From Rhodobacter sp. NTK016B (GTDB lineage: Bacteria; Pseudomonadota; Alphaproteobacteria; Rhodobacterales; Rhodobacteraceae): a DNA stretch of 64,000 bases. Below, in pieces: positions 40,610 to 62,740 of the stretch (its first letter is position 1; each line of letters starts with the position of its first letter). The notes under the pieces are model-generated. The model was not told the origin of the DNA. It searched no databases and was given only the letters and a program-made list of their open reading frames with translations. The stretch is taken from contig NZ_JAFKOK010000009.1 of the NCBI RefSeq assembly GCF_017303295.1, forward strand, positions 62,001 to 126,000, read 5' to 3'. The position numbers were made by a program, and so were the translations under genes.

Positions 40610-40612
40610 CCC

Positions 40613-41971: not shown

Positions 41972-43431
41972 GTATCGAGCTGATCGACACGACGCTGCGC
42001 GATGGCAACCAGTCGAACTGGGGGGCCACGGGTCTCGATACCGGCATGATGCTGCAGATCGCCCCGGTAATGGAGCGCGTGGGCTTTCACGCCATCGACT
42101 TCCTTGCCTCGACCCATATGGGCGTCGCGGTGCGCTTCAAGAAGGAAAACCCGTGGGAACGCCTGCGCCTGATGGCCGAGGCCTGTCCGACCACGCCGCT
42201 GCAATTCCTGACCACCGGCATGCGCTTTATCTCGTGGGAAGTGGCGTCGGACGAGTTGATGGAATTCGCCTTCCGGCTGCTGGTTAACAACGGCATTCGC
42301 CGGTTCGCCATCATGGACCCGATGAACAACGTCCCCGCGATGCTGAATATGGCGGGCATCACCCGGCGCGCCGGCGGCAGCCAGATCGTCGCCGCGCTGA
42401 CCTTCACCCTGTCGCCGCTGCATGACGACGCCCATTTTGCCGAGGCCGCGCGCAAGCTGACCGCGACCGGGCAATTCGACCGGCTGTATCTGAAAGACCC
42501 CGGCGGGCTGGTCACGGCCGAGCGGGCGAAAACCCTGATCCCGGCCCTGAAGGCGGTGATGGGCGAGGTGCCGCTGGAATTCCATTCCCACACCACGATC
42601 GGGCTTGCGCCTTTCAGCTATCTCGAAGCGGCCCCGCTGGGCGCCACAACCCTGCACACGGCGGCCAAAGGCGCAGCCAACGGCACCGCGCAGCCTTGGG
42701 CGACCTCGGTCATCGGCAACCTGCGCGATCTGGGGCATTCGGTCGATGTCGATGACGAGGCCGTCGCGCAGATGGACGCCTATTTCGACGCGCTGGTCGC
42801 CGCCGAGGGGCTCGTTCACGGCCAACCCGGCGAATTCGACCGCGCCTATTTCCGCCACCAGATGCCGGGCGGGATGATGGGCACGATGAAGCGCCAGCTG
42901 GGGGAAATCCGCAGGCTGGACCTGCTGCCCCAGGTGCTGGACGAGGTCGAGCAGGTGCGCGCCGAGCTGGGCTATCCGATCATGGTCACGCCGTTTTCGC
43001 AGGTCGTGGGCACCATGGCGCTGATGAATGTCATGCAGGGCGAGCGTTACAAGACCATCCCCGACGAGGTGACGCGCTACGTTCTGGGCCGTTTCGGTCA
43101 GCCTGCGATGTCGATGGACAAGGATGTCGAGTCGCGGATCCGCGACACCAAGCGCGCGCGCGAATTGGAGGAAGAGCCGCATATGGGCTCGCTCGATGAA
43201 TTGCGCGCGAAGATCGGGACCGGCTATAGCGACGAGGAATTCCTCTTGCGCGCGGTCATGCCCGGCGATCAGGTGGACGCCATGGTCGCCGCCGGACCGG
43301 CGCGTCGCGGCTATGACCCCAAATCGCGGCCCGTTTTGCATCTGATGAAAGAGCTGACCGCGCGCAAGGGTCTGGGCGCGATCCGGATCGAAAAGCCGGG
43401 GCTGAAACTGGAACTGAAAGGAAGCCCGTAA
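41968..43431 (+). CDS. Divergent pyruvate/oxaloacetate-type carboxyltransferase subunit
   Basis: A 487-residue DRE-TIM-barrel protein. It starts ELIDTTLRDGNQS (metal Asp at residue 7), has the carbamylated-Lys position in LYLKDPGGL (Lys 176) and the metal His pair in EFHSHTTIGLAP (206 and 208), then QMPGGMMGTM and TPFSQVVGTMALMN as in pyruvate carboxylase, oxaloacetate decarboxylase and transcarboxylase 5S. Two substrate regions deviate: HTHDTxG is HSHTTIG, and the usual GANAVGY segment is TGMRFISW. It lacks a biotin domain. It probably carboxylates an enolisable ketone or keto acid other than pyruvate. Confidence 0.85.
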   Translation: MSIELIDTTLRDGNQSNWGATGLDTGMMLQIAPVMERVGFHAIDFLASTHMGVAVRFKKENPWERLRLMAEACPTTPLQFLTTGMRFISWEVASDELMEFAFRLLVNNGIRRFAIMDPMNNVPAMLNMAGITRRAGGSQIVAALTFTLSPLHDDAHFAEAARKLTATGQFDRLYLKDPGGLVTAERAKTLIPALKAVMGEVPLEFHSHTTIGLAPFSYLEAAPLGATTLHTAAKGAANGTAQPWATSVIGNLRDLGHSVDVDDEAVAQMDAYFDALVAAEGLVHGQPGEFDRAYFRHQMPGGMMGTMKRQLGEIRRLDLLPQVLDEVEQVRAELGYPIMVTPFSQVVGTMALMNVMQGERYKTIPDEVTRYVLGRFGQPAMSMDKDVESRIRDTKRARELEEEPHMGSLDELRAKIGTGYSDEEFLLRAVMPGDQVDAMVAAGPARRGYDPKSRPVLHLMKELTARKGLGAIRIEKPGLKLELKGSP

Positions 43432-44285
43432 TGCACACCCATCCGATCAAGGCCGTGGTCTTCGACATCGATGGCACGCTGGCGCTGATGGACAAGGAAA
43501 AGGGCACCTATACCGCCCTGCCCGGCGCCGTGCAGGCGCTGGCCGATTGCAAAGCGATGGGTCTGCCCGTCGTGGCCTATACCAACGGCACGTTCTTTCC
43601 GCCCGCGCATTACTACCCGCTGCTGGCCGAGGCCGGGCTGGTGCTTGAGCCCGGTCACATCCTGACCCCCGCTGTCGTGGCCGCCCGGGCGCTCAAGGCG
43701 ATGGGCTATACGCGCATCATGGTCATGGGCGCCGACGGCACGACGGTTCCCGTGCAAGACGCCGGGATCGAGGTGATCGCGCCCACCAAGGACGCGCCCG
43801 CCGTCGATGCCGTGCTGCTGGGCTGGAGCAAGGATTTCAACGCCGAGCAGGTTGAGGCCGTGGTGCAGGCCGTTTGGAACGGCGCCAAGCCCTTCGCGGG
43901 TTCGGTCGCGCCTTATTTCGCGGGTGCGGGCGGAAAGAAGCTGCTGGGCATTTCGGGCGCCATCGCCGCCGCGCTGACCAATGCCACCGGCGTGCCCGTC
44001 ACCGTCTTCGGCAAGCCCGAAGCGGCGGGGCTCGATATCGTCAGCGCGCTTACCGGGGCGCGCCCCGAGGAAATGGTGATCGTCGGCGACGACCCGAAGC
44101 TCGAAATCCGTATGGGCCGCAAGGCCGGGGCCTTCTGCGTGGGGGTGACCACCGGGGTGGTGGACCTTGCCGGGTTCAACGAGTACCCCTCTGCCGAACG
44201 CGCGCAAGTGGTGCTCGCGTCACTCGACGGCTTCGCAGACCAGCCCTGGTTCGCGACGCAGACAGATACCGAGGAGAGGGCATAA
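43431..44285 (+). CDS. HAD-IIA family phosphatase (NagD-like)
   Basis: A 284-residue haloacid-dehalogenase-fold protein. Motif I is VVFDIDGTLAL (nucleophile Asp 13 and Asp 15), motif II is VVAYTNGT (Thr), the large C2 cap lies between about 85 and 190 and motifs III/IV are VFGKPEAAGLDI and MVIVGDDPKLEIRMG. NagD-like enzymes remove phosphate from sugars, nucleotides, phosphoglycolate or aryl phosphates. Overlaps of one base with the carboxyltransferase and CoA ligase genes place it firmly in this pathway. Confidence 0.88.
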   Translation: MHTHPIKAVVFDIDGTLALMDKEKGTYTALPGAVQALADCKAMGLPVVAYTNGTFFPPAHYYPLLAEAGLVLEPGHILTPAVVAARALKAMGYTRIMVMGADGTTVPVQDAGIEVIAPTKDAPAVDAVLLGWSKDFNAEQVEAVVQAVWNGAKPFAGSVAPYFAGAGGKKLLGISGAIAAALTNATGVPVTVFGKPEAAGLDIVSALTGARPEEMVIVGDDPKLEIRMGRKAGAFCVGVTTGVVDLAGFNEYPSAERAQVVLASLDGFADQPWFATQTDTEERA

Positions 44286-46273
44286 TGGTCACCGAAGGCG
44301 ATATTCTCTGGCAGGCATCGGAAGAACGGCTGTCGAAAGCCGTCGTCACCGATTTTCTCGCATTCCTTGCCGAGCGCGGCCACGTATTCGACGACTACTT
44401 CGCGCTGCATCGCTGGTCGGTGACCGATCTCGACGGGTTCTGGTCGGCGCTGCGCGACTTTTTCGGCATCGAGATGGAAGGCGAGCTGCAGCAGGTCGTC
44501 ACCGACGATCCCATGCCCCGTACCCGCTGGTTCACCGGCACGCGGATGAATTTCGCCGAGCAGGTCCTGCGCCACGAGGCAACCGGCGACCCCGCGCGCA
44601 CGATGCTGCACCATTGCTCGGAAACCCGCCCCCTCGCCGCGCTGTCCTGGGCCGAGGTCGGCGGACAGGTGCGCAAGCTTGCCACCCGGCTGCGCGAGTT
44701 GGGCGTCACCAAGGGCGACCGCATTGTCGCCTATATGCCCAACATCCCCGAAACCGTGATCGCCATGCTGGCCGCGACCGCCCTTGGCGCGACATGGGCC
44801 ACGGCGGCCCCCGAATTCGGGCCGCAGACGGTGATCGACCGGTTCAGCCAGATCGAGCCCAAGCTGGTTTTCGCCGTCAACGGCTATCGCTATGGCGGCA
44901 AAGATTTCGACCGCACCGGCGATCTGACCAAGATCCTCGCGCAATTGCCGACGGCAACGACGCTGGTGATGCTCGACTACCTGCCCGGCGCGGCGAAAGC
45001 GCCCGAATTCGGCGGTGAGGTGCTCGGCTGGGACGACCTGTTCACCGGCCCGGATATCGCGCGCGAGGATTTCCACTACGAGCGCGTCGCCTCGGATCAC
45101 CCGCTCTGGACGCTGTTCTCTTCGGGCACGACCGGCCTGCCCAAACCGATCGTGCAGTCGCACCACGGCATCGTGCTCGAGCATCTGAAAAACGCGGCCT
45201 TCGCGCTCGATCTGGGCGCGGGCGATACGTATTTCTGCTATTCCACCACCGGCTGGATGGTGTGGAACACGCTGATGCACGGCCCGCTGCTGAACGGTGC
45301 GTCGACGCTCTATGACGGCCACCCCACCTATCCCGATGCCGGTGCCCTGTGGCGCATCATCGAAGCGACCAAGGTCAGCCATTTCGGCGTCTCGCCCACC
45401 TTCATGACCATGGTGCGCCAGCAGGGAATCGTGCCGGGCCGCGACTATGACCTGTCGCCGCTCAAAAGCATGTTCCTGACCGGCTCGCCCGCCACGCCCG
45501 AGATCCTCGCCTGGGTGCATGAAGGGGTGAAGGAAGATCTCTTCGCGACCACCCAATCGGGCGGGACCGAGATCTGCGCCGGCATCCTTGTGGGCACCGC
45601 CCTGCTGCCGGTACGCGCGGGCGAAATTCAGGTGCCTGCGCTGGGTTGCGATGCCTGCGCCTTCGACGATGACGGCAACGAGGTCATCAACGAGGTGGGC
45701 GAACTGGTGATCCGCAAGCCGATGCCCTCGATGCCGCTGTTCCTGTGGGGCGACGACGATTTCTCGCGCTACGAGGACAGCTATTTCGACACCTATCCCG
45801 GCATCTGGCGCCACGGCGACCGCGTGCGATTCAACGAGCGCGGCGGCAGCTACGTGCTGGGCCGCTCGGACGCGACGCTCAACCGCTTCGGCGTGCGCAT
45901 CGGCTCGGCCGAGATCTACCGTACGATGGAGGGTATCGACGGGATCGCTGACAGCCTCATCATCTGCATCGAGGACGGCAAGGGCGGCTATTACATGCCA
46001 CTCTTCGTGCAGATGCAGCCGGATGTCGCGCTCGACGACGCCAAGCGCGCCGAGATCGTAAAGCGCCTGCGCTCCGAACGCAGCCCGCGCCACGTCCCCG
46101 ACGAGATCGTCGAGACGCCCGAGATCCCGACCACCCTGACCGGCAAGAAGATGGAAGTTCCGGTGCGCAAGCTGCTGCTGGGCCAGCCGGTCGGCAAGGT
46201 CGCCAGCCGCGACGCGACGAAGAACCCCGACGCGCTGGACTGGTTCGCGGATTTCGCGGCGAAACGCGGATGA
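44285..46273 (+). CDS. Acetoacetate-CoA ligase (acetoacetyl-CoA synthetase)
   Basis: A 662-residue adenylate-forming enzyme, the full length of acetoacetyl-CoA synthetases. The N-terminal cap FWSALRDFFGIEMEG and RMNFAEQVL are typical; core motifs are LFSSGTTGLPKPIVQSHHG, YSTTGWMVWNT, TQSGGTEICAG, WRHGDRVRF and the acetylation-type Lys in TLTGKKMEVPVRKLL. It converts acetoacetate, or a close 3-keto acid, with ATP and CoA to the thioester. Its place after carboxylase genes suggests activation of the carboxylation product. Confidence 0.9.
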   Translation: MVTEGDILWQASEERLSKAVVTDFLAFLAERGHVFDDYFALHRWSVTDLDGFWSALRDFFGIEMEGELQQVVTDDPMPRTRWFTGTRMNFAEQVLRHEATGDPARTMLHHCSETRPLAALSWAEVGGQVRKLATRLRELGVTKGDRIVAYMPNIPETVIAMLAATALGATWATAAPEFGPQTVIDRFSQIEPKLVFAVNGYRYGGKDFDRTGDLTKILAQLPTATTLVMLDYLPGAAKAPEFGGEVLGWDDLFTGPDIAREDFHYERVASDHPLWTLFSSGTTGLPKPIVQSHHGIVLEHLKNAAFALDLGAGDTYFCYSTTGWMVWNTLMHGPLLNGASTLYDGHPTYPDAGALWRIIEATKVSHFGVSPTFMTMVRQQGIVPGRDYDLSPLKSMFLTGSPATPEILAWVHEGVKEDLFATTQSGGTEICAGILVGTALLPVRAGEIQVPALGCDACAFDDDGNEVINEVGELVIRKPMPSMPLFLWGDDDFSRYEDSYFDTYPGIWRHGDRVRFNERGGSYVLGRSDATLNRFGVRIGSAEIYRTMEGIDGIADSLIICIEDGKGGYYMPLFVQMQPDVALDDAKRAEIVKRLRSERSPRHVPDEIVETPEIPTTLTGKKMEVPVRKLLLGQPVGKVASRDATKNPDALDWFADFAAKRG

Positions 46274-47043
46274 GCCTGACGCGGCTCTTCTCGGTCGATG
46301 GCAAGGCGGCGCTGGTCACCGGCGCCGCCTCGGGCCTCGGCCGTGCTATGGCCGAGGCACTCGCCGAAAACGGTGCGCGCGTGGTGCTGGTCGACCGCGA
46401 TAACGCGGCTCTGGCCGACATCGTGGCGCGGATGAACGGCGCGGGCAGGCAGGTTCTGGGCGTCGAGGCCGACGTGACAGACCTGCCGTCGGTCGAAGAC
46501 GCCGTCGCGCAGAGCGAGGCGGCCTTTGGCGGGCTCGATATCTGCGTGGCGAATGCCGGGATCTCGGATCCCGACCGCGCGCGGCTGCACGAAAGCAGCA
46601 CTGAAAGCTGGCGGGCCACGATCGACGTCAATCTGAACGGCGTCTTCCACACCAACCGCGCGGCGCTTCGGGTCATGGTGCGACAGGGCCACGGCAAGAT
46701 CATCAACGTCGCGTCGATGTGGGGCCATGTCGGCCCCGCCGGCCTGTTTCCGCGCCCGGCCTATGCCGCGTCAAAGGGCGCGGTCGTCAACCTGACGCGC
46801 GAACTGGCGCTGGAATACGCAGGTTCCGGCATTCAGGTGAACGCGATCTGCCCGGGTTTCTTTCGCACCGAAGGCCGCCCGCGCAGCGAGGACGCCGCGC
46901 GTCTCATGGCCGATTACACGCCGATGAAACGGCTGGCCGAGGCCGACGAGATCAAGGGCACGCTGCTGTATCTCGCCTCTGCCGCGTCCGATTTCGTCAC
47001 CGGCACAAGCCTCGTGATCGACGGCGGGGTCCTCGCGCGCTGA
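46270..47043 (+). CDS. Short-chain dehydrogenase/reductase
   Basis: A 257-residue SDR. Cofactor motif VTGAASGLGRAMAEAL, VDRD after strand 2 (favouring NAD), VANAGIS, and the catalytic Ser-Tyr-Lys in NVASMWG and YAASKGAVV. The C-terminus GTSLVIDGGVLAR is normal. It oxidises or reduces an alcohol/ketone, or a 3-hydroxyacyl compound. It overlaps the CoA ligase gene by ATGA and is last in the plus-strand operon. Confidence 0.9.
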   Translation: MSLTRLFSVDGKAALVTGAASGLGRAMAEALAENGARVVLVDRDNAALADIVARMNGAGRQVLGVEADVTDLPSVEDAVAQSEAAFGGLDICVANAGISDPDRARLHESSTESWRATIDVNLNGVFHTNRAALRVMVRQGHGKIINVASMWGHVGPAGLFPRPAYAASKGAVVNLTRELALEYAGSGIQVNAICPGFFRTEGRPRSEDAARLMADYTPMKRLAEADEIKGTLLYLASAASDFVTGTSLVIDGGVLAR

Positions 47044-47123: not shown

Positions 47124-47172
47124 GAGGCCGGGCACACTGGGCCAGACACACTGGGCCAGTGTGCCCGGCCTC
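47124..47172. terminator. Bidirectional terminator between the convergent operons
   Basis: GAGGCCGGGCACACTGG (47124-47140) and its exact reverse complement CCAGTGTGCCCGGCCTC (47156-47172) form 17-base perfect arms. The loop region holds a second copy of ACACTGGGCC. The right arm includes part of the ferredoxin stop codon. No strong T-tract is present. Confidence 0.7.
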
Positions 47173-47491
47173 AGCGCCCCGTTGCCACGTGGAAGACCGC
47201 GCCTTCAAGCGCCTCGGTCACGGTGATCTGACAGGTCAGCCGCGACGCGTCGCGCGGCTCGTTGGCCATGAATTCCAGCGTGTCGGCCTCGCTGGGCTGG
47301 GGTTCGGGCAAGGGACCGTTCGGCGCCTCGACCAGATAGCAATGGCAGGTCGCGCACATCGCCGAGCCGCCGCATTCGGCGATAATCCCCTCGATCCCCG
47401 CGTCGCGGGCCGAATACATCAGCGGATCGCCGGGCACGGCGTCGATTTCGCGCCGGGTGCCGTTTTCTTCGATAAAGGTGACTTTGACCAT
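47171..47491 (-). CDS. [2Fe-2S] ferredoxin, adrenodoxin/putidaredoxin type
   Basis: A 106-residue ferredoxin with the cluster ligands Cys 40, Cys 46, Cys 49 (CGGSAMCATC) and Cys 87 (RLTCQI), in the adrenodoxin-type C-x5-C-x2-C spacing. An extra Cys 51 follows. Such ferredoxins pass electrons to bacterial P450 enzymes, and a P450 gene is at the other end of this operon. A ferredoxin reductase gene is not in the window. Confidence 0.93.
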   Translation of the reverse strand: MVKVTFIEENGTRREIDAVPGDPLMYSARDAGIEGIIAECGGSAMCATCHCYLVEAPNGPLPEPQPSEADTLEFMANEPRDASRLTCQITVTEALEGAVFHVATGR

Positions 47492-47500
47492 GCTGCCCTC

Positions 47501-48262
47501 TCAGATGAATTGTTTTCCGCCGTCGATCACCAGCGTCTGGCCGGTCACGAAAGACGACAGGGTCGATGCAAGATACAACGCGCCGCCGGTAATGTCGTCG
47601 GTGGACGCGTTGCGTTTCAGCGCGGCGCGATCCACCCCGTAGCCCGCCGCGTTCTCGATCAGCGCAAGGCTTGCCTCGGTCAGCGTGAAGCCCGGCGCGA
47701 TGACATTGACGCGGATCCCGTCCTGCCCCATCTCGCGCGCCATGGTGCGGGTCATGGCGATGACCGCGCCTTTCGAGGCGACGTAATGCAGCCACATCGG
47801 CGAGCCCGAGAAAACCGTCGCCGAGGCGATGTTGATGATCGAGCCGCCCCCGCCCCCGCGCATCGCGCCCGAGACCGCGCGTGTCATCTGCCAGACGCCC
47901 TTGATGTTCACCGCCATCACGCTGTCCCAGACCTCTTCCTCGATCTCTTCGAAGGGACGGCGTTCCAGCCCGGCATAGAGCGCGGCGTTGTTGACCAGCG
48001 TGTCTATCCCGCCCAGCGCGGTCTGCGCCGTGTCCACCAGCGCCCGGCACGAGGCGGTCTTGGTCACATCGACCTCGGCAGCGAAGGCTTCGCCGCCCTG
48101 CCCGACGATGAGGGCGGCGGTTTCCTCGGCCCCGGCACGGTTGATGTCGGCCGCCACGACCCGGGCACCGGCCCCGGCAAAGGCCTGCGCAAAGGCCCGG
48201 CCCAGCCCACCGCCCGCGCCGGTGACGATGACGCGGTTTCCGTTCAGTGCGATCTCGCTCAC
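47501..48262 (-). CDS. Short-chain dehydrogenase/reductase (second)
   Basis: A 253-residue SDR starting at GTG (48260-48262), two bases after the HD gene stop. Motifs are VTGAGGGLGRAFAQAF, VAADINRAG, VNNAALYAG, IINIASAT and the catalytic YVASKGAV; the end is GQTLVIDGGKQFI. It differs from the SDR at 46270 in detail and is likely another alcohol or hydroxyacyl dehydrogenase of the same pathway. Confidence 0.9.
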   Translation of the reverse strand: MSEIALNGNRVIVTGAGGGLGRAFAQAFAGAGARVVAADINRAGAEETAALIVGQGGEAFAAEVDVTKTASCRALVDTAQTALGGIDTLVNNAALYAGLERRPFEEIEEEVWDSVMAVNIKGVWQMTRAVSGAMRGGGGGSIINIASATVFSGSPMWLHYVASKGAVIAMTRTMAREMGQDGIRVNVIAPGFTLTEASLALIENAAGYGVDRAALKRNASTDDITGGALYLASTLSSFVTGQTLVIDGGKQFI

Positions 48263-48264
48263 GT

Positions 48265-48915
48265 TCAGGTTCCTTCGCTGGGTTTCAGGGTGGTGTAGGT
48301 CGGGCCGTGGCCCAGATAGCGGTGGATCGACTCCTCAGCCCAGACGGCGGCGGTGTTCGCCTCGGCCATGGCGCGGCCCTGCGGGGTCAGCATCAGCGGG
48401 TTCGAGCGCTCGCGCAGCATGTGCAGGATCTCGGTCACCGGCACATCGTACCAGCCCGCGATGGTGCGCATTCCGTGCGGCGTGGTGCGCCAGCCCTTGT
48501 CGGCATCCTTCATCACCGCGTCGTTAATGTTCTTGGCCTCTTTCACCGTGTCGTGGCCGTCGATCACCGCCAGAACCGCGTCGATATCCACCCCGTCGGG
48601 CCGGTGCTTTTCAAGGATCTCGCGCGCGATTTCGACCGAGTGCAGCTCGTGCTCGCGGACCAGATCCTTGCGTGTGGGGTTGCGCCCGATGGCCAGCAGC
48701 AGCAGATCCTCGGGGATGCGCTTCCAGCCCACGTCATGCAGCACGATGGCGGGCAGGACGACGCTGTCATCGGCCTCGGGGATCTGCGCCAGCAGCGCGC
48801 GCGCAAGGCCATAGGCGACGATCGTGTGCTCGTCATTGTTGCGCACGTCGAGATAGGGCCGCGCGTCGTGCCAGAGCGGCAGATCGCGGGGCAGGAATGT
48901 CTCGTCGGGGGTCAC
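48265..48915 (-). CDS. HD-domain metalloprotein (first of two paralogues)
   Basis: A 216-residue protein starting at GTG in a GTGA overlap with the aldehyde dehydrogenase gene. It has the full set of HD-domain metal ligands: His 30 (NNDEHT), His 60-Asp 61 (LHDVGW), His 89/92, His 121 (VIDGHDT) and Asp 137/139 (KDADKGWR). The extra histidines fit a two-metal HD site, as in HD phosphohydrolases and the diiron oxygenases PhnZ and TmpB. It shares the order of motifs, GHDT and D-x-DK-x-WR with the HD protein at 50359-50955. Its reaction is unknown. Confidence 0.8.
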   Translation of the reverse strand: MTPDETFLPRDLPLWHDARPYLDVRNNDEHTIVAYGLARALLAQIPEADDSVVLPAIVLHDVGWKRIPEDLLLLAIGRNPTRKDLVREHELHSVEIAREILEKHRPDGVDIDAVLAVIDGHDTVKEAKNINDAVMKDADKGWRTTPHGMRTIAGWYDVPVTEILHMLRERSNPLMLTPQGRAMAEANTAAVWAEESIHRYLGHGPTYTTLKPSEGT

Positions 48916-50348
48916 AGCGCCTCCTCCCAGCTCAGATACATCGTCTTGTATTCAAGGTAGCTTTCGACACCGTAGCGGCCCTTTTCCCGGCCCAGCCCGC
49001 TTTCCTTCATGCCACCGAAGGGCACGTAATGGCTCGAGCGCTGGATATCGTTGAGCCAGACCGAGCCCGCCTCGATCCCCTCGCACAGCGCCAGCCCCGT
49101 CGCGAGATCGCGGGTGAAGACGAACCCGGCGAGCCCGAAGCGCGAGTCATTGGCGAGCCGCAGCGCCTCGGCTGGATTATCGACCGGCGACAGGCCGATG
49201 ACCGGGCCGAAGGTCTCTTCGCGCATGACCAGCATCTCGGGCGTGGCGTCGGCGATCAGCGTGGGCGGCAGGTAATGCCCCTGCGCAAAGCCGGGACCCG
49301 AGGCGCGCGTACCGCCGGTCAGAATCCGCGCGCCCTTGGCACGGGCGTCGGCGATCTGCCTTTCGCTGTTGGCGAAGATGCGGTCGTTGACGAGCGGGCC
49401 CAGATCCCCCTGCCCGCCAGCCGGGGCCAGTGTCAGCCCCTCGGCCCCAGTGGCGAGCCGTTCCAGCATCGCGTCGTAGACCGTGCGCTCGATATAGACC
49501 CGGTTGACGCGGTAGCAGAACTGCCCGGAATTGGCGAAGCCGTGCCGGGTGATGGCGGCCGCGGCGCGGTCCAGATCGGCATCGGCGCAGACGATGGCCG
49601 CCGAATGCCCGCCCAGCTCCAGCGTGACGCGCTTCATCGTGCCCGCGCAGGCGGCGGCGATGGCCTTGCCCGCCGGAACCGAGCCGGTGAACGCCACCTT
49701 GCGCGGCACCGGATGCGCGACCAGCGCCTCGCCCAGCGCGCGGTCGCCGGTGACGACGTTGAACAGGCCCGCGGGCAGGCCGGTGGCGTGGAACAGTTCG
49801 GCCAGCAAGATCGTGGACAGGGGCGTGTCCTCGCTGGGTTTGACCACCACAGGACAGCCCGCGATCAGCGCCGCGCCGAGTTTGAACATCAACAGCGTGA
49901 TCGGATAGTTGAAGGGCGTGATCGCCACCACCACCCCCACCGGGTCGCGGGTGACCACGGTCCGCTCTCCGGGGGCCGCGCCCAGCGCCATCGTGGCCTG
50001 CAGGCGCAAGCCTTCCTCGGCATAGATGTCCAGCAGATCGGCCGAGCGTGCGATTTCGCCCACGCATCCGGCGAGCGGACGGCCCAGTTCGCGATGCAGC
50101 ACGGTGCCGATCCGCTCGGCATTGTCGCGCATCGCCTGCGCGCAGGCTTTCTGCAGGCGCACGCGCTCGCTCATCGGTATGCGCTTCCAACTCTCGAAAG
50201 CCCGCGCGGCCGAGGCGATGGCGATCCCGGCATCCTCGGCCCCGCCCAGCGGTACGCTGTCAAAGGCCTCCCCCGTTGCGGGGTCGGTGACGCTCAGACG
50301 CTGGCCCGACTGCGCGGGAACGGAATGGCCGTCGATAAACATATCCAT
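48912..50348 (-). CDS. Aldehyde dehydrogenase (NAD(P)+)
   Basis: A 478-residue ALDH; AGGGG lies seven bases before the ATG at 50346-50348. Motifs are PFNYPITLLMFKLGAAL, TGSVPAGKAIA, the catalytic Glu in LELGGHSAAIV, the catalytic Cys in NSGQFCYRVNRV and EETFGPVIGL near the end. It oxidises an aldehyde to the acid with NAD(P)+. The phenylalanine before the Cys (GQFC) is also seen in relatives of lactaldehyde/succinate-semialdehyde dehydrogenases. It sits between the two HD genes. Confidence 0.92.
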   Translation of the reverse strand: MDMFIDGHSVPAQSGQRLSVTDPATGEAFDSVPLGGAEDAGIAIASAARAFESWKRIPMSERVRLQKACAQAMRDNAERIGTVLHRELGRPLAGCVGEIARSADLLDIYAEEGLRLQATMALGAAPGERTVVTRDPVGVVVAITPFNYPITLLMFKLGAALIAGCPVVVKPSEDTPLSTILLAELFHATGLPAGLFNVVTGDRALGEALVAHPVPRKVAFTGSVPAGKAIAAACAGTMKRVTLELGGHSAAIVCADADLDRAAAAITRHGFANSGQFCYRVNRVYIERTVYDAMLERLATGAEGLTLAPAGGQGDLGPLVNDRIFANSERQIADARAKGARILTGGTRASGPGFAQGHYLPPTLIADATPEMLVMREETFGPVIGLSPVDNPAEALRLANDSRFGLAGFVFTRDLATGLALCEGIEAGSVWLNDIQRSSHYVPFGGMKESGLGREKGRYGVESYLEYKTMYLSWEEAL

Positions 50349-50358
50349 CCGCCGCCCC

Positions 50359-50955
50359 CTAAAGCAGATGCGCCAGCAACAGCGCGCGGGTCTTGGCCAG
50401 CTCCGCCTCGGCCATGGCGCGGCCCGGTTCGGTTTCGAATTTCGGCAGGATCTTTTCGTTGCGGTCGCAGTTCTGAACCGGCGTTTCACCGAACCAGTCG
50501 CAGCCCACAGCGGTGCCCGTCACCTCGTAGCGCCACAGCTTGTCGCTGTCGCGCACGATCCGGTCGTTCAGATGGCGCGGCTCGGGGCGGGTGTCGTGGC
50601 CGTCGATGATCTCGCAGACCTGCGCGATCACATCCCCGGACCAGCCGGTCTGTTGCAAAACCTGCGCGCCCAGTCGCACGCCTTCGGCCTCGTGCCGGTA
50701 GCGGACATCGGATTGCAGGATGTTTTCCGAGCGAAAGCCCTGTTCGAGGATCTCGTCCATGTCGATGGCCCACCAGCCGATATCGTGCAGCAGGATCGCC
50801 AGCAGGCAGACATCGCGGTCGGCCTCGGGGAAATGGTCGAGCAATTTCACGCACCACGCGAAAGACAACGGGATATGCACGTCGTTCTTGCGCGCGCGCA
50901 TGTAGGGTTCGGCGGCGCGCCAGACAGGATCGTAGCGCGACAGGTCGGCAGACAT
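50359..50955 (-). CDS. HD-domain metalloprotein (second paralogue)
   Basis: A 198-residue protein with His 27 (KNDVHIPL), His 57-Asp 58 (LLHDIGWW), His 88 (YRHEAEG), His 120 (IIDGHDTR) and Asp 136/138 (RDSDKLWRY). These match the ligand order of the HD protein at 48265-48915, so the pair arose by duplication. GGAG lies about seven bases before the ATG. Upstream, between this gene and the kinase subunit gene, GGGGGGCC/GGCCCCCC (50980-51000) forms an eight-base hairpin without T-tract. Phosphohydrolase or oxygenase activity is possible. Confidence 0.8.
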   Translation of the reverse strand: MSADLSRYDPVWRAAEPYMRARKNDVHIPLSFAWCVKLLDHFPEADRDVCLLAILLHDIGWWAIDMDEILEQGFRSENILQSDVRYRHEAEGVRLGAQVLQQTGWSGDVIAQVCEIIDGHDTRPEPRHLNDRIVRDSDKLWRYEVTGTAVGCDWFGETPVQNCDRNEKILPKFETEPGRAMAEAELAKTRALLLAHLL

Positions 50956-51006
50956 CGCAAACTCCGCGAAGAGGAAATCGGGGGGCCGGGGCGGCCCCCC
51001 TTGCGT

Positions 51007-52818
51007 TCATTCGAGGATCGTCACGGTGCCGGCATTGCCATCCACCCGCACCCGCATCCCCGTCTTGATCTTCGACGAGGCATTGCCGGTGCCGGTCACG
51101 GCGGGCAGCCCGTATTCCCGGCAGACAATGGCCGCGTGGCTCATCATCCCGCCGATATCCGTGACCGCCGCACCGATCTTGCCAAAGACCGGAGCCCAGG
51201 ACGGCGCGGTGACCGGCGTGACAAGGATCTCGCCCTTTTTCAGCTCGCCCAGCTGGTCGGGCGAGCGCAGCACGCGCGCGACGCCCTCGACCACACCGGG
51301 CGACCCGGCCATGCCGTGCAGTGCGCCATCCGTCGAGCCCTCGCCGGCCCATCGCTTGATCGAGTCGCTGGTGATGCCCCACAGCATGATGGTGAAGGGC
51401 TCGGTAATGACCTCGGGCGGGTTGTTGAGCGCGGGCTGCGGCGATTCCGAGGCGAGCGCCTCGACAATGGCCCGGCGGCGCCGGATCTCTTCAGGCCAGT
51501 GCGTGGTGCCCTGCAACGTCGTGCCGATGGCCCAGGCAGCAGAATAGTCCCACAGCACGTCGCGGACCTCGTTGCGCGACAGGAAGAACATGCCGTCCTC
51601 GGTCTCCCACAGGCCCTGATCCATGAGCAGCTTGGACAATTGCCGCATCTTGCGCCAGAACACACCAAGCGCCCAATGTTCGATGTAGAAGTTGTGGTCC
51701 TCTACATAGGGGAAGACAGTGCGCGACAGGCCCAGCTTCTGATCGAAGACCGCCTGCGCTTCCTCATCCATCATCTCGCGGTATTCGGCGGTGATGCGGT
51801 CACGCTCGGCCAGCAGCCTTTCGGTGGGGCGCATGATCTCGTCGCCCGCCTCGACCCGTTTGATGTAATCCTTGAGATAGGTCATCGGGATGTCGAGATG
51901 GTCGATCCAGTACTTGTCGGTCGAATAGAACCCGTTGCCGGACGTGAAGTTGAACCACGGGTCCTTGGCTTCATCCCATGCGGCCAGCCATTCCTTGCCG
52001 CCCGGCTTGGTCGCCAGATCGGCAAGGATCACATCGACATGGTCGCTTTCAAAGACCGGCGAAAGGCCCTTTTCGACCGCCAGCTTCGCCAGCTTCTTCA
52101 GCTCGTCATCGGGGCGGAACAATTCGCTGTCGACGCCCTGAACCATCTTCGCGATGGCCTGATCGGGGATCTGCGGGAACTCGCCTTTCATGAAGCCGAA
52201 GAAGTCGAGATAGGCCGCATAGCCGAGATTCAGGAACTCGAAATGGTACTGCCAGATCTTGTAGCAGAGCCGGATCGCATCGTCGTAGCGGTTGAACAGG
52301 TCATAGGTGTTGTCGAGCCCCTTGCCCTCTTTCACCCAGTCGACATCGACGACCTCGGGCAGTTCCTCGAATTCGATCGCGTCGAGCTCGCCGATCGTGG
52401 CCATGACCTTGGTCTTCCAGTTGGCCAGCAACGAATCCCAGTTCATGTAGTAATGGCCCGCGCGGTCCAGGAATTGCGGGATCCGGGCCTCGATATCCTC
52501 GGGTGCCACGCCGATGGGCGAGAAATAGACATACCCGTTCAGGATCCGGTAATCGACGCCATTGGCCGGCGGCACCAGCAGGTGACGGGTGTTGTACTGG
52601 CCCAGCCCCTTGGTGGCGAAATCGACCATGATCGTGTCGAAGGGCCGGAAAGGCGTCGGCCAGTGCTGCGAGTTGCAGAACCAGAACTTGCCGTCCTCCT
52701 CGGCGCGTTTCTCGGGTCTGAACAGCACGTAATAGGGATAAATGCTTTCCCAGCCTTCGGCCCCGGCGGGGGCCTTCACGTCATAGGCGCTGGGAAACAG
52801 CGGTGTTTGAGCGTCCAT
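51007..52818 (-). CDS. PEP-utilising (phosphohistidine) subunit of a split PEP-synthase-like kinase
   Basis: A 603-residue protein. The C-terminal 80 residues are a PEP-synthase mobile domain: GEILVTPVTAPSWAPVF, then the phosphohistidine motif GGMMSHAAIVCREYGLPAV with His 561. The remaining 500 residues form a helical substrate-binding region with no PEP-binding TIM barrel. The size and His position recall the 70-kDa subunit of phenylphosphate synthase, which phosphorylates phenol. The ATP-grasp half is the next gene upstream. It probably transfers phosphate from His 561 to an alcohol, phenol or enol. Confidence 0.8.
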   Translation of the reverse strand: MDAQTPLFPSAYDVKAPAGAEGWESIYPYYVLFRPEKRAEEDGKFWFCNSQHWPTPFRPFDTIMVDFATKGLGQYNTRHLLVPPANGVDYRILNGYVYFSPIGVAPEDIEARIPQFLDRAGHYYMNWDSLLANWKTKVMATIGELDAIEFEELPEVVDVDWVKEGKGLDNTYDLFNRYDDAIRLCYKIWQYHFEFLNLGYAAYLDFFGFMKGEFPQIPDQAIAKMVQGVDSELFRPDDELKKLAKLAVEKGLSPVFESDHVDVILADLATKPGGKEWLAAWDEAKDPWFNFTSGNGFYSTDKYWIDHLDIPMTYLKDYIKRVEAGDEIMRPTERLLAERDRITAEYREMMDEEAQAVFDQKLGLSRTVFPYVEDHNFYIEHWALGVFWRKMRQLSKLLMDQGLWETEDGMFFLSRNEVRDVLWDYSAAWAIGTTLQGTTHWPEEIRRRRAIVEALASESPQPALNNPPEVITEPFTIMLWGITSDSIKRWAGEGSTDGALHGMAGSPGVVEGVARVLRSPDQLGELKKGEILVTPVTAPSWAPVFGKIGAAVTDIGGMMSHAAIVCREYGLPAVTGTGNASSKIKTGMRVRVDGNAGTVTILE

Positions 52819-52866
52819 TCTTGATCCTCCCTGAATGGCACAGATACTTGCCCCTTCGGCTCGTGC

Positions 52867-53937
52867 TTAGCGCTTCGAGCCGTAGGGGTTGTTCAAGGTT
52901 CCGACGATACTCATCATCCCGGTCGCGTAAGGGTTCTTGGGTTTGTCCTTTTTCTTCTGCGACCAGATGGTTTCGGGACGCGATTGCAGCGCCAGCAGGT
53001 TCTCGCCATCGGGCAGATCGGCGTCGATGGCCCATTCCACGTCCTGCGGACAGCCATTCTGTTTCTCAAGCCGCTTGGCGAGCTGCGCGACGGCGATCAC
53101 CTGCGCATCGGTCAGGCTGGGTGTCTTGCGGCGCGCGTCGTCGACCTCCCGTTCGACGGTCTCGCCCCGCTCGGCATCGCCGATCAACTCGACATGCTTG
53201 TCGCTGATCTTGCGGTCGATGATCTCCATCAGCACCTTCTCGACGCTGTAATTGTCGGGAGTCACCACGCCCGAAACGACCATCTCGCCCAACCCCCAGC
53301 TGGCGTCGATGACGATCCGCGTACGGTCGCCATTGAGCGGGTCAAGCGACATCGCCACCCCGGCGGCGCGGGCATTAACCATCTTCTGCACGCCCACACT
53401 CATATTCACATCGGCATGGGGGATCTTGTTCTTCTCGCGGTAGGCCACGGCGCGGGTCGCAAACAGCGAAGCCCAACAATCGCGCACCTTCTCGACGACA
53501 GCGTCTGCGCCACGCACCCACAGATAGGTGTCCTGCTGGCCCGCGAAGCTGGCATCGGGCAGGTCTTCGGCTGTGGCCGACGAGCGCACCGCGACGGGCA
53601 TGTCGTCGCCCATCGAGGCATAGGCTTCGCGGATCGCGGCTTCGACCTCGACCGGGATCTTGTGGCCGCGCATACGGATGCGGATCGCCTGCGCGGCGCG
53701 GTCGAGCGCGTCGAAATCCTCGGGATCGACACCCTGCAGATGGCGCTCGATCTCGGCCCTGAGGCCCGTCTGCTGAAGCATCGCCAGATAGCCGTCAGTG
53801 GTCACCGCGAAGCCCGGCGGCACCGCGACCCCGGCCTGCGTCATCTCGCCCAGCGACGAGCATTTGCCGCCCACCCGCGCCAGATCGTGCTTGCCGATCT
53901 GATCGAAACTCAGCGTATAGGTTCCGTCGGTTTTCAT
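52867..53937 (-). CDS. ATP-binding subunit of a split PEP-synthase-like kinase
   Basis: A 356-residue protein corresponding to the ATP-grasp part of PEP synthase (PPDK_N domain). Visible motifs are ARVGGKCSSLGEM, VPPGFAVTTDGY, VAVRSSATAEDLPDASFAGQQ, VGVQKMVNARAAGVAM, DASWGLGEMVVSG and LALQSRPETIW. It would use ATP to phosphorylate the catalytic His of the companion subunit, releasing AMP and phosphate. It starts at an ATG that overlaps the P450 stop (ATGA). A similar 40-kDa partner is known in phenylphosphate synthase. Confidence 0.85.
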   Translation of the reverse strand: MKTDGTYTLSFDQIGKHDLARVGGKCSSLGEMTQAGVAVPPGFAVTTDGYLAMLQQTGLRAEIERHLQGVDPEDFDALDRAAQAIRIRMRGHKIPVEVEAAIREAYASMGDDMPVAVRSSATAEDLPDASFAGQQDTYLWVRGADAVVEKVRDCWASLFATRAVAYREKNKIPHADVNMSVGVQKMVNARAAGVAMSLDPLNGDRTRIVIDASWGLGEMVVSGVVTPDNYSVEKVLMEIIDRKISDKHVELIGDAERGETVEREVDDARRKTPSLTDAQVIAVAQLAKRLEKQNGCPQDVEWAIDADLPDGENLLALQSRPETIWSQKKKDKPKNPYATGMMSIVGTLNNPYGSKR

Positions 53938-55184
53938 GCAGAAGCACCCAGTTCCACCATGACCGACGTCGGAACGCGGAAGGTGATGTTGCGATGGTAT
54001 TCGGCCTCGAATCCGGGGGCGAGGCGCAGGTCGGGGAAACGCTCGGACAGCTGGCGCAGCAGTACCGCGCCTTCCATCTTCGCAAGCTGGAAGCCGAGGC
54101 AATAATGAATGCCGTAGCCGAAGCTCAGATGCGTCCGCGCGTTCTTGCGGGTGATGTCAAGCTTTTCGCCCTCGGGGAATTGCGTCTCGTCGCGGTTGGC
54201 AGAGCCGGTAATCATCAGCACCTCGGCGCCCGCAGGCAGCGTCACGCCGCCGACCACCGCTTCGGTCCGCGCCTTGCGCCGCCAGCCCACGACCGAGGGC
54301 ATGTAGCGCAGCATTTCCTCGACCGCGTTGGGGATCAGCGCGGAATCGGCCTTGATCGCATCCCACGCATCGGGGTTCTGCATCATCGCGATGACGTAGT
54401 TGCCCATGAAAGTCGAGGTCGTCTCGTGGCCCGCGAACAGAGTCGAGTACAGGACGCCCGCGATTTCCTCGTTGGTGATATCGGCGCCTTCGGCCTGCAG
54501 CCGCAGCAGGTCCGAGGGGAAATCGTCGCCCGGTTCTTCGCGGCGCATGTCCAGAAGATCGTGGATGTATTTCCAATAGGCGACCATGTCATGCGCGACC
54601 GGGATCATCTCTTCGTCCGACAGGTCCGACCACGTCATCTTGCCCCGGCTGGCGCCGTATTGCTTGATCTTCGGCACGTCCTTGTCAGGGATGCCCATCA
54701 GCGTGAACAGCACATGCGCGGGCACCGGATAGGCGACGATATCCCAGAAATCGACGGGCTTGCCGCTGCGACCGGCATCTTCCAGCTTGTCGAGATGGGT
54801 TTTCACGATCTCTTCGATCTGCGGCTCGATCGACTTGAAGCGGCGCGGACCGAAGCACGATTGCGCAACCTTGCGGATGCGGGTGTGATCGGGGGGCACG
54901 CGGGCAGTCAGGCCCGAATAGGCCGTGAAGCCGCCATCCTTCAGGATCTGGCGACCGGCCTCGGACATCGGCCGCATCGGTTTTTGCGCGTTTTCCGAGC
55001 TGAAGGTTTTCCAGTCGTCAAAGATCGCCTTGATGTCGTCGAAGCGGGACACGACCCAGTAACCGCTGGGTTCGTGATAAAAAATCGGTTCTTCCTTGCG
55101 GAACTGTTCCCACCGGGCGTGAGGCCGGTTCAGGTCGAACGGATCAAAGCCGTCCGACGGCAAAATGCCGTCCATCGTTTCCAT
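53934..55184 (-). CDS. Cytochrome P450
   Basis: A 416-residue soluble bacterial P450; GGGAGG lies eight bases before the ATG at 55182-55184. The I-helix has FAGHETTSTFMG, the K-helix ExxR is EEMLRY, and the heme-binding loop is LSFGYGIHYCLGFQLAKME with the Cys ligand. It hydroxylates a substrate using oxygen and electrons from a ferredoxin, probably the one at 47171-47491. It is coupled to the kinase subunit gene and lies 62 bases after the regulator gene. Confidence 0.95.
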   Translation of the reverse strand: METMDGILPSDGFDPFDLNRPHARWEQFRKEEPIFYHEPSGYWVVSRFDDIKAIFDDWKTFSSENAQKPMRPMSEAGRQILKDGGFTAYSGLTARVPPDHTRIRKVAQSCFGPRRFKSIEPQIEEIVKTHLDKLEDAGRSGKPVDFWDIVAYPVPAHVLFTLMGIPDKDVPKIKQYGASRGKMTWSDLSDEEMIPVAHDMVAYWKYIHDLLDMRREEPGDDFPSDLLRLQAEGADITNEEIAGVLYSTLFAGHETTSTFMGNYVIAMMQNPDAWDAIKADSALIPNAVEEMLRYMPSVVGWRRKARTEAVVGGVTLPAGAEVLMITGSANRDETQFPEGEKLDITRKNARTHLSFGYGIHYCLGFQLAKMEGAVLLRQLSERFPDLRLAPGFEAEYHRNITFRVPTSVMVELGASA

Positions 55185-55246
55185 GTCGATATCCTCCCAA
55201 GCTCGCCAAACCTGACACCGATCCCGGCATGGGGCGAGCATGAGAA

Positions 55247-56746
55247 TCAGCGTAGGACCAATTCTTTGGTTTTTCTTTGGCCCGGCGTCAGACGGTCCAA
55301 AGAGCGGCACAGCTCGTCATAAACTGCCCTGATTTCAATGCCTTCGTGCTCTTCTCCGAAATTGGACATCGCCTTGCGGTATTGCCGGTACTGCCGATGC
55401 ATCGCGTCCGGGCGCCCCATCGCGTGGAAGACGCGCATGGCCTCGGCATTGGCGGCCTCGCTGGTCGGGTCGATAGCGATGGCGCGCTGCGACCATTCCA
55501 GCGCCTCGGCATAGCGGCGATAGCGGCGCAGAAGTTTCGACAGGTCGTAATGCACCCGCATCGCCATCTCGCGCAGCCATGTGCGGCGGGGCATGATCCA
55601 GTCTTCGGTCTCGGTGGCGAGGTATTCGAGCGGAAGGTCTTCGAACAGATCGCCCGCATAGAGCCGCTCGGCCTCGAAATACACGACCAGCGCGGCATCC
55701 TCCTTGCCGTGGCGGGCCAGCGACAGCGCGCGGCGGCAGAGCTGTTCGAACGTGGTGATATCGACAAGGCTGCCGGGCGGCGCGTTCAGCCGGTAGTAAT
55801 CGCCGGTGCGGATGACCGACTCTCGGCTTCCCAGCACCTTGCGCAGCATTGCGACCGTGTGGTGCAGCCGTGCGCGCTTGGTCTTTTCCGTCTCGTCGCC
55901 CTGCCAGAGCAATTCCCCGATCTGGTCGGCATGCGCGCCCTTCTCGCCCGCGTTCAGCAGATAGGCAAAGAGTGTCTTGGTCTTCTTGGGGGCGCCGCCG
56001 GCGATGCGCCAGTCTACCTCGTGCTGACCCGCGACGAAGACGCGCAGCTGCCCGAGGCAATGGATATGCCAGCGCTCGCTATTCCCTTGCGTGACCAGCG
56101 GCGGCGCCGCGTCGTCCAGCCAGTCGGGCGAGGCGCCGCGCGCGGCGGCCTTGTCAAACGTGCGAAAAAAGCTCTGCCCCGCAAAGTCGGGCACCACCCG
56201 GCCCAGCATGAAGCCAAGTTGCTCATCCAGCGTCGATTCGTGCAGCAATTCGCGGGGCATCCAGTACGGATTTTCGTAGAGCCCGCTCGGCGCGAGGAAA
56301 TGCTGATGCGCCCGGAACGCAGAGAGAAGCTGCTCTTCGATCAGCCGTTGCCGGTTGTAGAGCGAGATCACCGAAAGCCCGGTTTCGGCGCTGATACGCT
56401 CGGCCACATTGCCCCATTGCTCGATCGCCGCGACGCCCATCATCGCCATCGACGCCCAGGTCATATCGACCAGAACCGCCTGCAAACCGTCCTGCCCGGC
56501 CAGCAGATCGCGCAGGCGCTGAATCGTGTCCTCGGGGTCGAAGGGCAGGATCTGCAGCCCCGGCTTCGCATAGCCCGTGCGATGCGAGGCCGGGATCTCG
56601 GGCAGCAAAGCGGGATCATCGCTGATCAGAAGCCGCCCCTCGGGCCAGCTTACCAGCGCGTCGGCCATGAAGTCATGATCGGCGAACCCACAAAACAGGG
56701 CGGCGTTGATTTCCTGAACATGTGTCGAATCAGGCGTCGTGTTCAT
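55247..56746 (-). CDS. MEDS-SARP/BTAD transcription regulator
   Basis: A 499-residue protein. The N-terminal 190 residues resemble the MEDS (DcmR-type) sensory domain: a strand start NAALFCGFADHDFMADALVS, VDMTWAS, VISLYNRQRLIEEQLLSAFR and NPYWMPREL. A winged-helix of OmpR/SARP type follows (about 245-345; LFAYLLNAGEKGAHADQIGE and RLHHTVAMLRKVL), then a helical BTAD domain (about 350-490) with repeats of the TPR kind. Such SARP-like proteins activate nearby operons. As first gene of the minus-strand operon it probably senses the substrate and turns on the P450 operon and the divergent GMC gene. Confidence 0.75.
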   Translation of the reverse strand: MNTTPDSTHVQEINAALFCGFADHDFMADALVSWPEGRLLISDDPALLPEIPASHRTGYAKPGLQILPFDPEDTIQRLRDLLAGQDGLQAVLVDMTWASMAMMGVAAIEQWGNVAERISAETGLSVISLYNRQRLIEEQLLSAFRAHQHFLAPSGLYENPYWMPRELLHESTLDEQLGFMLGRVVPDFAGQSFFRTFDKAAARGASPDWLDDAAPPLVTQGNSERWHIHCLGQLRVFVAGQHEVDWRIAGGAPKKTKTLFAYLLNAGEKGAHADQIGELLWQGDETEKTKRARLHHTVAMLRKVLGSRESVIRTGDYYRLNAPPGSLVDITTFEQLCRRALSLARHGKEDAALVVYFEAERLYAGDLFEDLPLEYLATETEDWIMPRRTWLREMAMRVHYDLSKLLRRYRRYAEALEWSQRAIAIDPTSEAANAEAMRVFHAMGRPDAMHRQYRQYRKAMSNFGEEHEGIEIRAVYDELCRSLDRLTPGQRKTKELVLR

Positions 56747-56979
56747 GGCCCCTCCCCCCGAACCGTTGAAACGTCTTGCGTATCAGCATCTTACTTCACG
56801 AAGCAATTTTTGCCAAAGAGAAACCAAAGCGTCCGCCTCTAGCCTCTGCCTGCCGACATACTGCGCGGCAGGGAGGAATTCGCAAATCACGTCACCGCCG
56901 ACCCCGCATTCGGGCGTCGATCGGAAGCGTATGTGCGAAACAAGGCACCGCGTGCCGGTGCCGAACGGAGGCCGACCCA
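56747..56979. promoter_or_regulatory. Divergent promoter region between the regulator and GMC oxidoreductase genes
   Basis: A 233-base region that must hold promoters for both transcripts. The ribosome binding sites are GGGAGG (before 56746, minus) and GGAG (56967-56970, before the TTG start at 56980). SARP proteins often bind direct repeats; I could not identify a convincing pair by eye. Confidence 0.45.
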
Positions 56980-58614: not shown

Positions 58615-58687
58615 TGCCATGACGGCGATCCTTCGCCCCGCTCCTTTGTTCCGCGTCGTTCGCAAGCCGCGCGGGACGAAGCCAAGG

Positions 58688-58710: not shown

Positions 58711-58766
58711 GACCGTATAAGAAGACCCGACAAAATCCCGCTGCACGTCCACGGAGGAGGAGAGAC

Positions 58767-62738: not shown

Positions 62739-62740
62739 GC

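Follow-up and report, generated by a model that had tools for sequence, protein, structure and literature searches.

We analysed 64,000 nucleotides of the Rhodobacter sp. NTK016B genome (hereafter the window; positions 62,001 to 126,000 of contig NZ_JAFKOK010000009.1, or G000:C86:62001-126000, in which G000 is the genome of the window). Its minus strand carries eight tightly packed, co-directional genes with a regulator gene upstream, and these eight genes are almost certainly an operon of the Cre type known from Corynebacterium glutamicum. Convergent with them is a plus-strand operon whose products resemble the carboxylase module of the Hpe pathway. A Cre core, with a possible Hpe-type extension, is very probably the best explanation of the region as a whole. 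The chances are about even that the two operons form a hybrid aerobic pathway, in which one phenol kinase would serve both the Cre and the Hpe-type modules and 4-ethylphenol would be degraded.

The eight-gene operon and its split kinase

Coordinates and Pfam matches confirmed that the eight-gene operon is real and bore out an earlier reading made from the letters and open reading frames (the sequence-only reading), which had described eight co-directional, tightly packed genes; the range it gave for them takes in the regulator gene as well. From ferredoxin to cytochrome P450, the operon proteins matched the Pfam families Fer2, adh_short, HD, Aldedh, HD, PEP-utilizers, PPDK_N and p450, and the regulator matched BTAD. 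The P450 and CreI genes overlap by 4 bases, as do those of the aldehyde dehydrogenase (ALDH) and the second HD protein (HD2). The gaps are 48 bases between CreI and CreH, 51 between CreH and the first HD protein (HD1), 10 between HD1 and ALDH, 2 between HD2 and the short-chain dehydrogenase (SDR) and 9 between SDR and ferredoxin, and 62 bases separate the regulator from the P450 gene. The P450 gene most likely starts at the ATG at 55184, preceded by GGGAGG, rather than at an upstream GTG; the query used for P450 searches (53934-55187) was one codon longer. Scans for promoters and terminators gave about as many sites as in shuffled sequence.

The kinase resembles a phosphoenolpyruvate (PEP) synthase divided between two genes. 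PPDK_N was found in the 356-residue CreI, and the swivel PEP-utilizers domain is confined to residues 527-597 of the 603 residues of CreH, where His561 sits in the motif GGMMSHAAIV and is invariant across a 10-sequence alignment. No PEP-binding barrel family matched either half in Pfam at E<=0.001, and matches of a CreH profile to PDB chains at the same threshold were restricted to the swivel region. Pfam and the alignment agree with the split PEP-synthase-like kinase, with His561 and no barrel, that the sequence-only reading had proposed. The CreI gene of the operon is the single PPDK_N gene found in the genome. PEP synthase has a second substrate domain that the related HpeHI kinase is described as lacking; the swivel histidine is stated to be essential in HpeH, and CreHI to start 4-cresol catabolism by phosphorylating the phenol (PMC12167813).

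In a CreH tree built by a quick method, in which long branches meet among the outgroups L034-L038, the window sequence falls in an alphaproteobacterial group inside a Cre side of 90 rows (Shimodaira-Hasegawa-like approximate likelihood-ratio support 98). Excluded from this side are L034 (Azoarcus, beside phenylphosphate carboxylase genes), the carboxylase-linked L035 and L038, and L036 and L037. By this placement the kinase is a member of the Cre clade and does not group with phenylphosphate synthase. Kinases for phenol, alkylphenol and hydroxyphenylethanone are reported to form distinct clades (PMC9618137). The NCBIfam match for CreH (PRK08296.1-2, 993 bits, above cut-off) is named only 'hypothetical protein', so public annotation hides this pathway; the cluster can now be named, although its largest subunit is still listed as hypothetical in NCBIfam. 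Two of the outgroup loci show other settings: L037, on a Natrinema plasmid (6492-12954), is a haloarchaeal CreHI-like two-component kinase with genes for a metallophosphoesterase, a dioxygenase subunit and an aldehyde dehydrogenase nearby, and in L036, on a Thermomicrobium roseum plasmid (9992-18468), a CreHI-like kinase pair adjoins a biotin carboxylase gene and xanthine-dehydrogenase-type genes.

The best PDB chains for the window P450 were 5xjn (also 7ccf), to which it is 47.4% identical, and 5gwe, with the next best at E 6e-73; we take 5xjn and 5gwe to be CreJ (CYP288A2) of C. glutamicum. CYP288A2 of C. glutamicum is named CreJ in PMC9357085, and CreH-CreI-CreJ-CreD is described as a system for alkylphenol oxidation (PMC9549646). 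The Cre comparison was made with genomes whose P450s resemble CreJ, standing in for C. glutamicum. In one of these, of 3.2 Mb, the P450 is 91% identical to 5xjn and the genes run regulator-P450-CreI-CreH-SDR-ferredoxin-reductase-HD-ALDH (regulator-J-I-H-G-F-E-D-C). This gene content agrees with that of C. glutamicum from cg0637 (creC) to cg0645 (creJ) in the table of PMC7764795. Identities of the window proteins to the C. glutamicum-like cluster are 57% for CreH, 52% for CreI, 48% for the P450 and 42% for HD1, with SDR and ferredoxin as in Table 1; for the specificity of the SDR, the names of its PDB matches are not diagnostic. The combination of families that the sequence-only reading had offered as a possibly undescribed pathway has thus been described already, as the Cre pathway (cited as Du et al. 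2016 in PMC12167813 and PMC9618137). The eight-gene cluster represents that pathway, from which it departs by an additional HD gene and a different regulator.

Conservation of the cluster and its two HD proteins

In a sample of 292 genomes of the order, full-length CreH (at least 69% identity) was found in five, that of the window included. All four of the others keep the order regulator-P450-CreI-CreH-HD1-ALDH-HD2-SDR, with a ferredoxin in three and a reductase in three, which argues that the cluster is no chance juxtaposition. For a wider view we took the best 80 of 520 confirmed CreH relatives from a scan of species genomes, so that the counts describe close relatives; gene counts at these loci rest on identity thresholds of our choosing, 53 loci of at least 21 kb were treated as long, and L040 and L045 come from one genome. 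The 80 loci carry a P450 gene in 78 cases, CreI in 76, HD in 79, ALDH in 75, SDR in 75, ferredoxin in 64 and reductase in 59 (not found at 21). The core of P450, CreI and HD is complete at 74 of the 80, so the co-occurrence across genomes on which the sequence-only reading had made its pathway idea depend was indeed found. By the same thresholds one core gene is missing at L046, L062, L080, L093 and L107, and at L064 CreH and CreI stand without a P450 or HD gene in 21.8 kb.

The cluster occurs in records named as Alphaproteobacteria, Bacteroidota, Actinomycetota and a metagenome-assembled genome (MAG) of Chloroflexi. A Maritimibacter MAG, which may be mixed, holds two cre loci, L040 and L045; one is of the window type and the other ordinary, and their P450s, 85% and 62% identical to that of the window, belong to different subtypes. 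On two Rhodococcus plasmids the cluster lies near toluene-4-monooxygenase genes, and such a gene was present at 4 of the 80 loci, which fits a supply of p-cresol (toluene to p-cresol to Cre). L032 and L033 (the Rhodococcus plasmids) and L055-L058 (alphaproteobacteria) may represent a unit for converting toluene to 4-hydroxybenzoate, mobile where it is plasmid-borne.

Two or more HD genes were present at 52 of the 80 loci, and at 36 of the 53 long ones. A midpoint-rooted tree of 135 HD proteins divides HD1 and a CreD-position group (82 rows) from an HD2 group (53 rows) with support 96/87. The presumed metal-binding residues H27, H57, D58, H88, H120 and D138 (HD1 numbering) are kept in 134-135 of the 135 rows, both groups pooled. 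AlphaFold models were confident (predicted local distance difference test 94.3 for HD1 and 93.8 for HD2), and the nearest PDB folds of both were HD hydrolases, matched weakly (E 1e-3 at best). A role for either protein as a diiron oxygenase of the PhnZ/MIOX type is unlikely, since HD hydrolases match best and no PhnZ or MIOX occurred among the best 50 of 276 and 212 matches.

By clade and position HD1 is presumed to be a CreD-type phosphohydrolase, an HD protein in the CreD position being seen in C. glutamicum-like loci. Both C. glutamicum-like loci that extend past creD have one HD gene only, and the list of Cre enzymes in PMC8796525 does not include a second. With two or more HD genes at 52 of 80 loci and the metal-site residues conserved, HD2 is apparently an active enzyme of over half of these Cre clusters and an ancient paralogue, which leaves an enzyme without an assigned role at those 52 loci. 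Where the sequence-only reading had the substrate further converted with the HD proteins, HD1 is the presumed phosphohydrolase, and HD2 is not assigned to a step. At L061 no HD1 or ALDH was found, and its sole HD protein sits on a long branch among the HD2 sequences.

The regulator differs between clusters. BTAD regulators were found at 27 of the 80 loci and IclR regulators at 45, never both in the 53 long loci, and the BTAD regulator of the window occupies the place of the IclR regulator in actinobacterial cre clusters. Divergent from it, at 56776-60020, are genes for a GMC oxidoreductase and a substrate-binding protein of the Peripla_BP_6 family; an ABC-type ATPase gene follows at 62537-63454.

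The convergent carboxylase operon and its possible link to the Cre kinase

The plus-strand operon lies 127 bp beyond the ferredoxin gene (Table 1). It was overlooked in the sequence-only reading and is the possible seat of novelty. Its regulator matched PRK09834-type models, which we take to be of the IclR type, and its carboxylase, HAD and synthetase genes are the counterparts of hpeC, hpeA, hpeB, hpeD and hpeE (PMC9618137), without the kinase. In L035, a Rhizobium leguminosarum cluster, the same carboxylase, HAD and synthetase genes follow a CreHI-type kinase. This hpe-type cluster, with a CreHI-family kinase of its own, lies on the legume-symbiont plasmid pRlBT01c (10001-19160). Homologues of the second SDR of the window were found in the same position at L041 (62%) and L043 (58%), and none was found at L138 in the same search. 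No kinase belonging to the carboxylase operon was found, since the genome gave a single match of the CreH type (E<=1e-60) and a single PPDK_N gene, and no HpeF beta-ketoacyl-CoA hydrolase was recognised within 39267-47043, the stretch to which that search was confined. HpeCBA is reported to carboxylate phosphorylated, not free, forms of the ketones tested, and HpeD to dephosphorylate the product (PMC9618137).

Table 1. Genes of the Cre-type operon and of the convergent carboxylase operon (positions in the window)
Feature	Coordinates	Strand	Basis
Regulator, BTAD (SARP-type)	55247..56746	-	BTAD 7.9e-14; weak MEDS 24.7 bits, below cut-off 29.8
Cytochrome P450, CreJ homologue, divergent subtype	53934..55184	-	PDB 5xjn/5gwe E ~1e-126
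CreI, ATP-grasp half of phenol dikinase	52867..53937	-	PPDK_N E 4.3e-113
CreH, phenol-binding and swivel half of dikinase	51007..52818	-	PEP-utilizers 527-597; phosphohistidine His561 by homology
HD1, presumed aryl-phosphate phosphohydrolase	50359..50955	-	CreD side of HD tree
Aldehyde dehydrogenase (CreC role)	48912..50348	-	Aldedh 1.1e-146
HD2, second ancient HD paralogue	48265..48915	-	HD tree, conserved metal-site residues, model
Short-chain dehydrogenase (CreG role)	47501..48262	-	Pfam adh_short; 53% to C. glutamicum-like SDR
2Fe-2S ferredoxin (CreF role)	47171..47491	-	Fer2 8.6e-10; 40% to C. glutamicum-like ferredoxin
IclR-type regulator	39267..40076	+	PRK09834-type models 137 bits, below cut-off 251; 54% to regulator beside L035 hpe-type cluster
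HpeC-like biotin carboxyl carrier protein (BCCP)	40163..40609	+	BCCP 111 bits (cut-off 115); 50% to L035
HpeA-like biotin carboxylase	40613..41971	+	64% to L035
HpeB-like carboxyltransferase	41968..43431	+	Pyruvate carboxylase B / OadA models below cut-off; 64% to L035
HpeD-like HAD-IIA phosphatase	43431..44285	+	HAD-SF-IIA 84.7 bits (cut-off 100); 41% to L035
HpeE-like acetoacetate-CoA-ligase-family CoA synthetase	44285..46273	+	TIGR01217 702 bits, above cut-off 520.9; 55% to L035
Second SDR, candidate 1-(4-phosphophenyl)ethanol dehydrogenase	46270..47043	+	Homologues at L041, L043

We searched 55 cre-bearing genomes (50 from the 80 loci and 5 others) with the window carboxyltransferase and the L035 kinase. 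The carboxyltransferase was matched at E<=1e-60 in 16 of the 55, with at least 44% identity in 15. Ten of these 15 have only Cre-type CreH (G000, G187, G693, G694 with two, G695, G697, G712, G721, G724 and G726), and in seven of the ten (G000, G187, G693, G695, G697, G724 and G726) no PPDK_N was found beyond the Cre one. In 8 of the 15, no more than 10 kb separates the carboxyltransferase from the cre CreH (G000, G187, G695, G697, G712, G721, G724 and G730), that is, in 7 of the 10 genomes with only Cre-type CreH versus 1 of the 5 with an extra kinase (G730). In G712 (L061/L184) one strand reads regulator-P450-CreI-CreH-HD-SDR-BCCP-biotin carboxylase-carboxyltransferase, with no ALDH before the contig end.

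The P450 tree points the same way. Of the seven alphaproteobacterial rows that bear the carboxylase, six group in one clade (100/100) on a long stem of 0.74. The clade also holds L088, a locus outside the carboxylase search, and none of the 17 carboxylase-negative rows. The carboxylase label changes twice on this tree against a mean of 6.2 after shuffling, and 0 of 500 shuffles were as low. Fifteen positions conserved elsewhere are altered in the divergent clade, in an alignment made without L062. Since the CreH tree does not separate the carboxylase genomes from the carboxylase-lacking L042, L044, L047 and L048, it is the P450, not the kinase, that tracks the carboxylase.

A rival reading contests the extension only. 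In it the eight genes are a plain Cre operon for p-cresol alone, and the Hpe-like operon acts independently on 4-hydroxyacetophenone or another ketone with an unrecognised kinase of its own; we give this somewhat less than an even chance. It would fit the 39 of 55 cre genomes without a carboxyltransferase match at 1e-60, and likewise G246 and the kinase MarK (both below), and it is opposed by the seven genomes without a second PPDK_N, by the linkage within 10 kb and the single operon of G712, and by the restriction of the divergent P450 subtype to carboxylase-bearing genomes and L088. Several observations weigh against the hybrid or against the Cre assignment beneath it. Five of the 15 carboxylase-bearing genomes (G722, G725, G729, G730 and G740) have an extra kinase beside the carboxylase, assigned to the Hpe type by this position and by identity to L035 rather than by a tree. 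G246 (L180), one of three genomes of the order sample with a carboxyltransferase of at least 74% identity (G000, G187 and G246; four more have 37-41%), carries the carboxylase-HAD-CoA ligase-SDR set in full, with a carboxyltransferase of 74%, yet neither CreHI nor PPDK_N was found in it, so that the module can exist without such a kinase. A single-component kinase, MarK, is described in Novosphingobium, and kinase and carboxylase genes were reported as clustered in only 52 of 836 cases (PMC13101465). The clustering of the six P450s could reflect one ancestral event, and the P450 of G712 falls outside the subtype of the window although the carboxylase is present. An additional PPDK_N occurs in G694, G712 and G721, where the frames are long (807-856 residues) and probably encode a PEP synthase or pyruvate phosphate dikinase, though they may alternatively encode a single-component kinase. 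Within the operon itself, the ALDH is 36% identical to that of the C. glutamicum-like cluster, and no CreE-type ferredoxin reductase was found, the best candidate elsewhere in the genome being at G000:C13:39490-40692 (39%, Pyr_redox_2 and Reductase_C). It is G246, MarK, the possible single P450 event and the placement of the G712 P450 that leave the hybrid at about even odds; the extra PPDK_N genes of G694, G712 and G721 do not change these, because the window genome and six others have none. After the carboxylase set of G246 come genes for another SDR and a UPF0261 protein and a match to the amidohydrolase family.

The kinase itself could be read in two further ways, both of which we reject. 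The sequence-only reading had likened it to phenylphosphate synthase, which converts phenol to phenylphosphate; the likeness stands as far as a related dikinase is concerned, the subunits being homologous and 47-50% identical to the Azoarcus KH32C pair beside the ppc genes, but the kinase has a separate place in the CreH tree, in the Cre clade, and a PpcA or PpsC-like gene was found at 0 of the 80 loci; in place of a phenylphosphate carboxylase there are P450 and HD genes. That it is phenylphosphate synthase proper is therefore very improbable. A split PEP synthase working in gluconeogenesis would account for the sole PPDK_N found in the genome and for an ATP-grasp half that resembles PEP synthase, yet it can be virtually dismissed: no PEP/pyruvate barrel family was matched, the CreH profile reached PDB chains in the swivel region only, and the conserved neighbours are P450, HD, ALDH and SDR genes.

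Proposed pathway and comparison with known systems

The analysis shows homology, gene order, co-occurrence and the absence of a second PPDK_N gene; all substrates, all reactions assigned to this organism and any connection of one operon with the other are inferences. In the Cre pathway CreJ oxidises the phosphorylated phenol, an aryl phosphate, by hydroxylating its alkyl side chain, and the later steps follow in the order adopted here. CreI would bind ATP and CreH carry the phosphohistidine, the two together phosphorylating a para-alkylphenol at its hydroxyl group. With electrons from the ferredoxin and from a reductase whose gene lies outside the operon, the CreJ-like P450 would then hydroxylate the aryl phosphate on its alkyl side chain, the alcohol would be oxidised further by the SDR and ALDH, and the phosphate would be removed by one or both HD phosphohydrolases. 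The P450 setting noted in the sequence-only reading is borne out. Of the order proposed there, oxidation and then phosphorylation at an oxygen, the phosphorylation fits the homologues, but in the Cre pathway it precedes the P450.

A methyl side chain would in this way yield 4-hydroxybenzoate for PobA and protocatechuate 4,5-dioxygenase. The genome has two PobA matches above cut-off, one of them about 2 kb from a LigA match, and four LigA matches above cut-off; with no PcaH above cut-off in the genome, 4-hydroxybenzoate would go by 4,5-cleavage. An ethyl side chain would be converted by the P450 and then an SDR to 4-phosphoacetophenone, which the biotin-dependent carboxylase would carboxylate before the HAD enzyme dephosphorylates the product. 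The CoA synthetase would activate that product so that it can be cleaved into acetyl-CoA and a 4-hydroxybenzoyl product. A single Cre kinase would serve both the methyl and the ethyl branch, with the phosphate as a handle kept through oxidation and carboxylation and released only afterwards. Such a hybrid arrangement would have arisen more than once, in the window-type alphaproteobacterial clade, in the single operon of G712 and in Microbacteriaceae.

What may be new is that one kinase couples a Cre module to an Hpe module. If true, the hybrid would be an aerobic, ring-sparing route for 4-ethylphenol that joins two pathways which we found described only separately, and it would make testable why these bacteria spend ATP on a phenol before oxidation. 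In the open-licence literature we found no Cre cluster in Alphaproteobacteria, no Cre-Hpe hybrid and no such aerobic route for 4-ethylphenol, which does not imply absence from print.

With the Cre pathway of C. glutamicum (creC-creJ) the window shares the CreHI kinase with its swivel histidine, a CreJ-type P450 adjoining the kinase, a 2Fe-2S ferredoxin and a CreD-side HD protein. An SDR and an ALDH are present too, 53% and only 36% identical to those of the C. glutamicum-like cluster. The window differs in its second HD paralogue, in having a BTAD instead of an IclR regulator and a diverged P450, in the lack of a CreE reductase from the operon and in the convergent carboxylase operon. With the Hpe pathway (hpeHICBADEF, Rhodococcus rhodochrous GD02) and the Acv pathway (strain SYK-6) it shares a three-part biotin-dependent carboxylase, a HAD phosphatase, a CoA synthetase and, in its genome, a CreHI-family kinase. 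Unlike Hpe, the carboxylase operon shows no kinase or HpeF gene, has the biotin carboxylase and carboxyltransferase genes in swapped order and includes an extra SDR, and the sole kinase found in the genome is the Cre one, with a P450. GD02 is reported not to grow on 4-ethylphenol (PMC9618137). Phenylphosphate synthase of Thauera and Azoarcus (PpsAB and PpsC) has a homologous two-component dikinase, but the window kinase belongs to another clade and is set in P450 chemistry; the window has no phenylphosphate carboxylase and no CBS third subunit, Pfam finding no CBS family in the operon proteins. In Aromatoleum aromaticum EbN1 the carboxylase genes cluster with hpeHI homologues (PMC9618137). The carboxylase of the window is homologous to the one (XccBCA) used for ketone carboxylation in the anaerobic p-ethylphenol pathway of that organism. 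The first oxidation in EbN1 is independent of O2, whereas a P450 is proposed for that step here.

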